Origin: a bacterium
Lineage (GTDB): Bacteria > CAIWAD01
DNA length: 36,650 nucleotides
Assembly: GCA_030685015.1 (NCBI GenBank)
Contig: JAUXWS010000033.1
Span: 1 to 36,650, forward strand
Reading direction: 5' to 3'
Shown one piece after another: positions 10,675 to 12,562 of the stretch. The translations under genes and the position numbers were made by a program. The notes below the pieces were generated by a model. That model was given only the letters and a program-made list of their open reading frames with translations, searched no databases and was not told the DNA's origin. The stretch's first letter is position 1; the number at the start of each line of letters is the position of its first letter.

Positions 10675-10797
10675 GTCGGATGCAGATGACGGGGATCCGT
10701 GCGATGACAGGTCGCCCAATCCCGTCAGGACCGGAAGGTAGCAGCGGCAAGCGATACTGGCTTGTGCCGCGGTGAACCGTCGTCTGCATCCGGCCGG
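10672..10797 (+). ncRNA. ffs: Signal recognition particle RNA (bacterial small type)
   Basis: The RNA scaffold of the signal recognition particle; with Ffh it targets nascent membrane and exported proteins. The conserved apical sequence GTCAGGACCGGAAGGTAGCA starts at 10724 and shows the GGAA tetraloop and the asymmetric Ffh-binding loop. The closing helix pairs CCGGTCGGATGCAGATGACG (from 10672) with the segment ending at 10797 (CCGTCGTCTGCATCCGGCCG region), with few mismatches. The ~126-nt length fits the short type without an Alu domain, unless the upstream hairpin is kept. It sits directly upstream of dnaX, the same order as scr-dnaX-yaaK-recR in Bacillus. Ends are set from the helix and may be off by a few bases. 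Confidence 0.93.
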
Positions 10798-10840: not shown

Positions 10841-12562
10841 ATGTCCTATCTGGTCCTCGCCCGCAAGTGGCGGCCCCAGCGCTTCACCGAGGTGATCGGC
10901 CAGCGTCACGTGGTGCGCACCCTGGAGAATGCCATCCGCAGCGGGCGCATCGCCCATGCCTACATCTTCAGCGGACCGCGCGGCGTGGGGAAGACCTCCA
11001 TCGCCCGCATCCTGGCCAAAAGCCTCAATTGCGCCGAGGGCCCCACCCCCGAGCCCTGCGGCGTCTGCCGCTCCTGCCAGGACGTGCAGGCCGGCAGCCA
11101 TTTCGACGTGATCGAGATCGACGGCGCCAGCAACAAGTCCGTGAACGACATCCGGGAGCTGCGGGCCAACGTCAAGTACGGGCCCGGCGAGTCGCGCTGG
11201 AAGGTCTACATCATCGATGAAGTGCACATGCTGTCCACCAGCGCCTTCAACGCCCTGCTCAAGACCTTGGAGGAGCCGCCGCCCAACACCGTCTTCATCT
11301 TCGCCACGACAGAGCTGCACAAGCTGCCCCTCACCGTGCTCTCGCGCTGCCAGCGCTTCGATTTCAAGCGCCTGACCCCCCAGGAGATCGAGGAGAGCCT
11401 GACCCGCGTCTGCGCCAGCGAGGAGGTGCGCATCGAGCCGCGCACCCTGCGCCTCATCGCGCGGCGGGCCGACGGCGGCATGCGGGACGCCCAGTCCATG
11501 TTGGATCAGGTGCTCTCCTTCAGCGAGGGCGAGGTCTCCCATGAGGAGGTGGTGCAGGCCCTGGGACTGGTCGGACAGGAACGCCTGGACCAGGTGCTGG
11601 AGGCCCTGCGCGACCGCGACGGCGCCGCCGCCCTCCGCCTTGCCCGCGACCTGAGCGCGGCGGGCACGGATCTGGCCGAGTTCCTTCTGCAGCTGGCCGA
11701 CCAGTTGCGGCACCTTCTCCTGGTGCGTCTGGACCCCGCCGGCGCCGCCGCCGAGCTGCCGGAGGATCTGCTGGCCCGCTTGGGCGCCCTGGCGCCCGCC
11801 TTCCCCGAGGACGACCTCGTCCGCATGCTGGGCTATCTGGGCGGACAGATCGAGGCCATCCGCCGGGGCGGGCATCCCCGCCTGCGCTTCGAACTGACCC
11901 TGCTTCGCCTGGTCCGCATGGAGCAGAGCCTGGACTTGCAGGACCTGCTGCGCACCCTGGCCGGCCTGCCCGCGGAAAGCCTGGGCGCGGCGGCGGACGG
12001 GGAGGCAAAAAAAAGCCCGGCTCGGGCCGGCCCTGACCTGATACCACCGCGGCCGGAGACGGCGATCTCCACGCCGGACAAGGACACGCGGCCGGCCCCC
12101 CCTGGCCAGGCGGGAAGGGCGCTGGCGCCCCCCGCGGGGGAGCAGGAGCCGGCGGTGGTCGCGACGCCACCGGTCGACCTGGCCCGCCTGCGGGAGTTGT
12201 GGCCGGCTTTCCAGGAGGCGGTGGAGCGGGATTTCCCCCTGCTCCTGGACGGTTTCCTGCAGGTGCTGCCCGTCGGGCTGGGCGAGGGGCGCCTCGTGCT
12301 CAAGGGGGAGCTGGGGGGCGGCCTCATCGCCGACCACTTGCGGCAGGCCCGGCCCCAGTTGGAGGCCCTGCTGGGCCGCTTGCTGGGCGGGGCGGCCCCT
12401 ACGCTGGAGTTCAAGGAGGGCGCCCTCAGCGACGAGGAACGCTTCCTCAAGACGCGGCGCACCCACCTGGACTCCCGCAGCCGCTTCGATGAGCTGCGGC
12501 GGGAGGCGCCGCTGGTGGAGGACCTCTTCGCACGGATGGAGGGTCGCCTGCTGGACGGCTGA
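10841..12562 (+). CDS. dnaX: DNA polymerase III subunit tau (and gamma by recoding)
   Basis: Clamp-loader ATPase of the replicative polymerase; 573 residues for full-length tau. The AAA+ domain has Walker A GPRGVGKT at 45-52, a zinc site with Cys64, Cys73, Cys76 and Cys79, Walker B-like IIDEVHML, and the SRC sensor (LSRCQRF). After domain III (about residue 370) comes a linker rich in Pro and Ala, then the tau-specific C-terminal domain. At codons 389-392 an A8 run followed by a hairpin provides a recoding site; a -1 shift ends at TGA 12034-12036, giving a ~398-residue gamma form. The start ATG 10841 begins the conserved MSYLVLARKWRP; an in-frame ATG at 10772 lies inside the SRP RNA and is rejected. 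It lies upstream of ybaB and recR. Confidence 0.95.
   Translation: MSYLVLARKWRPQRFTEVIGQRHVVRTLENAIRSGRIAHAYIFSGPRGVGKTSIARILAKSLNCAEGPTPEPCGVCRSCQDVQAGSHFDVIEIDGASNKSVNDIRELRANVKYGPGESRWKVYIIDEVHMLSTSAFNALLKTLEEPPPNTVFIFATTELHKLPLTVLSRCQRFDFKRLTPQEIEESLTRVCASEEVRIEPRTLRLIARRADGGMRDAQSMLDQVLSFSEGEVSHEEVVQALGLVGQERLDQVLEALRDRDGAAALRLARDLSAAGTDLAEFLLQLADQLRHLLLVRLDPAGAAAELPEDLLARLGALAPAFPEDDLVRMLGYLGGQIEAIRRGGHPRLRFELTLLRLVRMEQSLDLQDLLRTLAGLPAESLGAAADGEAKKSPARAGPDLIPPRPETAISTPDKDTRPAPPGQAGRALAPPAGEQEPAVVATPPVDLARLRELWPAFQEAVERDFPLLLDGFLQVLPVGLGEGRLVLKGELGGGLIADHLRQARPQLEALLGRLLGGAAPTLEFKEGALSDEERFLKTRRTHLDSRSRFDELRREAPLVEDLFARMEGRLLDG
11999..12036 (+). promoter_or_regulatory. dnaX recoding signal (slippery A8, hairpin, frame -1 stop)
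   Basis: A Shine-Dalgarno-like GGGGAGG (11999-12005) precedes A8 (12007-12014), which reads GCA AAA AAA AGC in the zero frame and so contains A_AAA_AAA. A GCCCG/CGGGC stem with a GCT loop (12015-12027) follows immediately. The -1 frame stops at 12034-12036 and the +1 frame at 12039-12041, so slippage either way gives a gamma-length product. The hairpin touches the A run, closer than the E. coli spacer, so transcriptional slippage is as likely as ribosomal frameshifting. Confidence 0.72.

Follow-up and report, generated by a model that had tools for sequence, protein, structure and literature searches.

The dnaX gene of G000, the source genome of the DNA analysed here (GCA_030685015.1, contig JAUXWS010000033.1, lineage CAIWAD01, 3.61 Mb), carries a run of eight A's that is most likely a real and conserved recoding site, and most likely one of the Thermus kind, with transcriptional slippage on an unusually short run in a new lineage. 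We consider it fairly probable that RNA polymerase slips on this run as it does in Thermus dnaX and that both tau and gamma are made. Slippage would yield mRNAs with varied numbers of A's; those remaining in frame would be translated into tau, and those out of frame would run into one or the other of a pair of TGA codons close by, yielding gamma, which comprises domains I-III without the tau tail. The run, the frames around it, the stops, their conservation and a flipped phase in one relative (G003) are present in the genomes. From these features we infer slippage, with RNA polymerase and not the ribosome as its agent, and the production of both proteins.

The window, that is, the whole stretch of DNA analysed (36.65 kb), contains dnaX together with the features collected in Table 1; the SRP RNA gene (RF00169) was the sole match of the Rfam scan. 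The codons across the run read GGG GAG GCA AAA AAA AGC CCG, with a C at 12006 just before the eight A's. The run lies 16 residues after the end of domain III (residue 373), so a product stopping there would retain clamp-loader domains I-III in full and lack the tau tail. Overall, the predicted gamma products measure about 397-400 aa, their TGA stops lying 6 and 8 codons past the run.

Table 1. Features in and around dnaX of G000 (positions are those of the window)
Feature	Position	Strand	Details
Small SRP RNA gene	10688..10786	+	RF00169, 57.9 bits; context, just upstream of dnaX
dnaX, DNA polymerase III tau	10841..12562	+	573 aa; TIGR02397, E 1.2e-134
dnaX domains			PF13177, residues 20-178; PF22608, 182-230; PF12169 (domain III), 232-373
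Shine-Dalgarno-like GGGGAGG	11999..12005	+	1 nt 5' of A8; probably merely Gly-Glu-Ala codons
A8 run	12007..12014	+	residues 389-392; proposed slippage site; homologous A10 in G001, G002, G003
Intrinsic-terminator-like stem, then T8	12007..12028	-	pattern scan; also in G001, absent from G002 and G003; probably incidental
Stem of 5 bp with 3-nt loop, GCCCG-GCT-CGGGC	12015..12027	+	flush with A8; probably incidental
TGA, frame of +1 nt or -1 ribosomal shift	12034..12036	+	predicted gamma 398 aa, ending AKKKPGSGRP
TGA, frame of -1 or +2 nt	12039..12041	+	predicted gamma 399-400 aa, ending ARLGPALT

The A8 run is exceptional, as judged from a gene G+C content of 71%, the closure of both alternative frames and the presence of A10 in the relatives. 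An earlier note on this DNA had called the run striking for so G+C-rich a gene, and the counts bear this out. Runs of at least eight A's arose in only 8 of 20,000 synonymous codon shuffles of G000 dnaX, A runs elsewhere in the gene reach four at most, and the A8 is unique in the window (shuffle mean 0.01). At none of 498 other codon positions in the gene are both frames closed as fast as at the A8. The coordinates and lengths given in the note for GGGGAGG, the flush 5-bp stem, the stops in both frames, the 573-aa tau and the predicted gamma of about 398 aa were likewise all correct.

The whole G000 genome contains five places with at least eight A's, and none of the other four, all of which were checked, falls in an ORF with an excess of G+C at third positions, a crude filter. 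Such places were also checked in the relatives (all 5 in G001, all 10 in G003 and 3 of the 10 in G002), where several overlap ORFs that pass this filter.

The phylum sample consisted of five genomes (G000 to G004), three of them with the record names DYSB01000065.1, CAIWAD010000135.1 and JAUIFJ010000019.1. G001, G002 and G003 belong to the same family as G000, with G003 as outgroup, and every family genome is a draft assembly. The dnaX gene of G004 is broken off by a contig end; the family comparison covers four complete dnaX genes. A scan of genome contigs returned as its top three loci the same contigs as L002-L004; its other 77 loci were scanned for runs only and stand outside the panel described below.

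All four family genes have an A run at the homologous place, A8 in G000 and A10 in G001, G002 and G003, the A10 runs starting at residues 393, 390 and 386, respectively. The note had named absence of the run from all near relatives as evidence against its proposal; this was looked for, and the run is present there and is longer. Outside dnaX, G001 and G003 have no A10 anywhere in the genome, whereas G002 has a single one. The linker around the run is poorly alignable, and each family gene closes both non-tau frames with stops of its own, 0-9 codons off. Equally fast closure was found at none of 502 other positions in G001, at none of 503 in G002 and at a fraction of 0.0038 of 520 in G003.

The codon phase at the run varies among the family members. 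In G003, dnaX is split: the genomic frame encodes gamma, with a TAG two codons past the A10, and the tau tail, which +1 or -2 nt would bring into frame, is still recognisable at 28% identity (E 1.8e-11), so that tau would depend on the slip. This gene (L004) lies on a single contig with a coverage of 1.76 according to its record name, so that an assembly error in the A10 is possible. The two layouts within one family argue for selection on the run with its flanking stops and not on the frame.

The additional A10 of G002 (contig C81, 1226-1235) is directly followed by an inverted repeat and lies in no filter-passing ORF; it is probably a transcription-end element.

Slippage gives transcripts in all frames, so both non-tau frames must close and any phase is tolerated. 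A -1 shift by the ribosome requires an in-phase heptamer and the closure of a single frame. The family, with both frames closed and a varying phase, shows the pattern of slippage. Varying phase by itself leaves room for the ribosome, as an A10 contains an in-phase A_AAA_AAA whatever the phase.

An alternative that we regard as unlikely, while giving it some weight, is that gamma is made by a ribosomal -1 frameshift of the single tRNA-Lys(UUU) on A_AAA_AAA, with RNA polymerase faithful on A8. Such a shift could use the in-phase A_AAA_AAA at 12007-12013 and the stop that closes the -1 frame 6 codons past the run; it would yield the same 398-aa gamma, and both products in all three relatives. A single tRNA-Lys (UUU) was found in G000 among 42 tRNAs, all of which were typed, although a missed tRNA is possible in this 97% complete genome. 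In the Thermus case, two Lys tRNAs disfavour ribosomal shifting, and this argument does not apply to G000, since it has only one. Moreover, strong slippage by the E. coli polymerase takes a longer run than A8: for this enzyme, the available part of PMC6260861 reports that slippage is undetectable on fewer than eight A's and nearly absent from the A runs tested. The spelling and surroundings of the run, however, speak against the ribosome: the accessible sections of PMC5009743 describe A_AAA_AAG as the heptamer at which E. coli ribosomes shift far more readily than at A_AAA_AAA, and set the required Shine-Dalgarno distance at 9-14 nt and the usual stem distance at 5-9 nt, whereas in G000 the Shine-Dalgarno-like stretch is 1 nt off and the stem is flush with the run. 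Furthermore, the +1 frame is closed as well, at a distance matched by 12.7% of positions in G000, 3.0% in G002 and 4.0% in G001, and the relatives retain A10 in varying phase.

While RNA polymerase sits on the run, a stem 3' of it is still untranscribed. The slippage-stimulating stem that is known lies adjacent 5' of the run, in RNA already made (PMC5009743, available part), and the argument for transcriptional slippage from a flush hairpin therefore fails. The earlier note had relied on the zero spacing of the hairpin as a sign of slippage, and this part of its reasoning has to be abandoned, also because such a stem is as frequent as chance allows and lacks conservation. Taken alone, the 13-nt stem has a z of -2.13; folding 3' of the A8 is at the level of shuffles (z 0.18 over 30 nt and 0.41 over 60 nt), stems of at least five pairs start at 62 of 750 positions in the same part of the gene, and no stem was found beside the run in G001, G002 or G003. 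The upstream flank of the A8 is no more folded than shuffles either, with a z of 2.10 for 40 nt and 0.13 for 25 nt. The Shine-Dalgarno-like stretch has no counterpart within 25 nt upstream of the run in G001 or G002, and G003 has one only at the far end of that distance. We rejected the hairpin as a stimulator given its ordinary folding, lack of conservation and position on the wrong (3') side of the run, and the Shine-Dalgarno-like stretch given its spacing of 1 nt and lack of conservation; judged from the four genes, both are probably bystanders. What stands of the note's preference for Thermus-like slippage over an E. coli-type site is carried by the run in all four genes, the closed frames, the varying phase and the lack of the E. 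coli stimulators in the gene of G000.

On the minus strand, the same hairpin followed by T8 matches the pattern of an intrinsic terminator, which would halt antisense transcription in dnaX. We rejected this candidate and consider it most improbable: the pattern recurs in G001 but is missing in G002 and G003, flush stems of at least five pairs are common, and a terminator leaves the closed frames and the flipped frame of G003 unexplained.

We then compared dnaX genes outside the phylum. The panel started from 169 loci, of which 11 were truncated; the 158 complete genes comprise the four family genes and 154 from outside the phylum. They were drawn from 60 genomes, with G052 excluded for its weak best match, and from the 110 listed of 133 further matching genomes. 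A runs past residue 330 were grouped by length and counted as closed when both non-tau frames stop within 14 codons; the expectation was computed from the background of each gene itself.

Both frames are closed at 145 of 291 A5 runs, 72 of 129 A6, 28 of 56 A7, 17 of 34 A8, 13 of 16 A9 and 13 of 13 runs of at least A10. Runs of at least A9 are thus closed in 26 of 29 cases against 10.8 expected (P = 7e-11), whereas A5-A8 runs show a slight excess (262/510 vs. 234.5 expected, P = 0.005) and the A8 class by itself shows none (17/34 vs. 15.1 expected). The contrast between runs of at least A9 and shorter ones is robust, with Fisher P values between 6e-7 and 0.0012 at cut-offs of 5, 8, 10, 14 and 20 codons. 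Such long runs occur in 28 of the 154 genes, compared to 16.7 expected from codon shuffles, and these 28 genes belong to 28 different families. No run of nine or more T's was found in the 154 panel genes. In-phase A_AAA_AAG is contained in just 2 of the 29 runs, showing no preference, and for E. coli-type heptamers in shorter panel runs an excess of closure was not clear. Four of the 29 runs lie in split genes, where a frame other than the genomic one stays open longer past the run; a single extra A leads into it in three cases, and a slip in the opposite direction in one. The downstream flanks of the 29 runs show ordinary folding (mean z -0.26, s.e. 0.19). Taken together, at least nine A's in dnaX look like a common, repeatedly evolved slippage device, and the A8 class does not.

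The panel also bears on whether the run in G000 is a chance spelling of a lysine pair as AAA AAA, with no role. Lys-rich linkers do give A runs in AT-rich dnaX genes, as runs of at least A9 are about as frequent as expected below 40% G+C (7 vs. 7.6 expected). However, at a G+C content of at least 60%, where dnaX of G000 belongs, they occur in 3 of 38 genes outside the phylum against 0.10 expected, and within the family the run is conserved in all four genes together with closed frames. Chance is thereby strongly disfavoured, and we hold it to be very improbable.

The A8 of G000 lies at the lower length limit for Thermus-type slippage, and the panel signal begins at A9. As A8 is also at the detection limit for the E. 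coli RNA polymerase and there is no A8 signal in the panel, the mechanism is less certain in G000 than in its A10 relatives. Below the panel threshold, slippage in G000 may be weak, the shift may be ribosomal, or the site may be fading. The shorter run makes a lower gamma yield in G000 than in the relatives probable.

That an A10 slippage run has shrunk to A8 in the G000 species, which would now make almost only tau, appears rather unlikely to us. The A10 in the relatives, including the outgroup G003, agrees with such a loss, as does the background behaviour of A8 runs in the panel and the near absence of slippage by the E. coli polymerase at this length. Yet stops still close each alternative frame within 8 codons, a distance unmatched at the 498 other positions of the gene, and codon choice still holds the A8 in a gene of 71% G+C (8/20,000 shuffles). 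In addition, slippage length limits differ among bacteria, according to the available text of PMC1088944. Slippage of RNA polymerase on the A8, with tau and gamma both made, remains our preferred explanation.

A broader reading, which we offer tentatively as possible and a little short of probable, is that runs of at least A9 in dnaX are a repeatedly evolved bacterial switch gated by the length at which slippage sets in. Run length, phase and the protein spelled by the genome would then have drifted freely in the family, because slippage supplies every frame, and the A8 of G000 would be near loss or retuning.

Transcriptional slippage in dnaX was reportedly described for the A9 of Thermus thermophilus by Larsen et al. 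in 2000. The available parts of PMC5009743 and PMC1088944 treat it as established. As in Thermus, the A run of G000 falls in the later part of dnaX, the genome spells tau, stops lie close by in both other frames, and gamma is predicted. It differs from Thermus in having A8 instead of A9 and a single tRNA-Lys, and in the position of the run, which stands at residue 389 of 573, directly after domain III, and about seven-eighths along the gene in Thermus (PMC1088944, in the part at hand).

Split dnaX genes were the subject of PMC3711429 (2013), whose available portion lists 17 of them, nine with A10, argues for slippage and takes runs of eight or longer. G003 resembles these genes in its A10, its gamma in the genomic frame and its tau reached by a shift in the -1 direction, whereas G000 has tau in the genomic frame. 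The rule given in that portion, that slippage orthologs need not share the direction, holds here only weakly, in that the family has both layouts.

Compared to E. coli dnaX, G000 likewise has one tRNA-Lys and a gamma that ends shortly past a run of lysine codons. Unlike E. coli, it lacks A_AAA_AAG (A_AAA_AAA is followed by AGC), a Shine-Dalgarno spaced by 9-14 nt and an 11-bp stem spaced by 5-9 nt, and its third frame is closed too. In the slippage site of the Roseiflexus IS, a hairpin touches the run as in G000, but on the 5' side instead of the 3' side (PMC5009743, accessible sections).

These results would extend dnaX slippage, known from Thermus, to a small uncultured phylum, and a family in which the genome spells either tau or gamma shows both layouts together. 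In the literature searched, subscription papers aside, we found no wider survey of poly-A runs in dnaX. Slippage that only truncates is called difficult to predict in the available part of PMC1088944; the closed-frame test offers a purely comparative way to recognise it, with a threshold between A8 and A9. The findings are also relevant to the question of how widely clamp loaders come with a gamma/tau pair.

The panel runs of at least A9 fall into two clusters, near residues 358-418 and 493-558, apart from a single run at 451, which might hint at two kinds of truncation. In dnaX of G006 (L151), an A9 lies near the C-terminus and the longer frame is reached by +2 or -1 nt, the sole such case in the panel. 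The 30 nt upstream of the 29 runs are slightly more stable than shuffles in a post hoc comparison (mean z -0.70, s.e. 0.23); the corresponding mean z is +0.16 (s.e. 0.15) for the 34 A8 runs and -0.84 (s.e. 0.34) for the four family genes. The more stable upstream folds of the long runs could be nascent hairpins that aid slippage.
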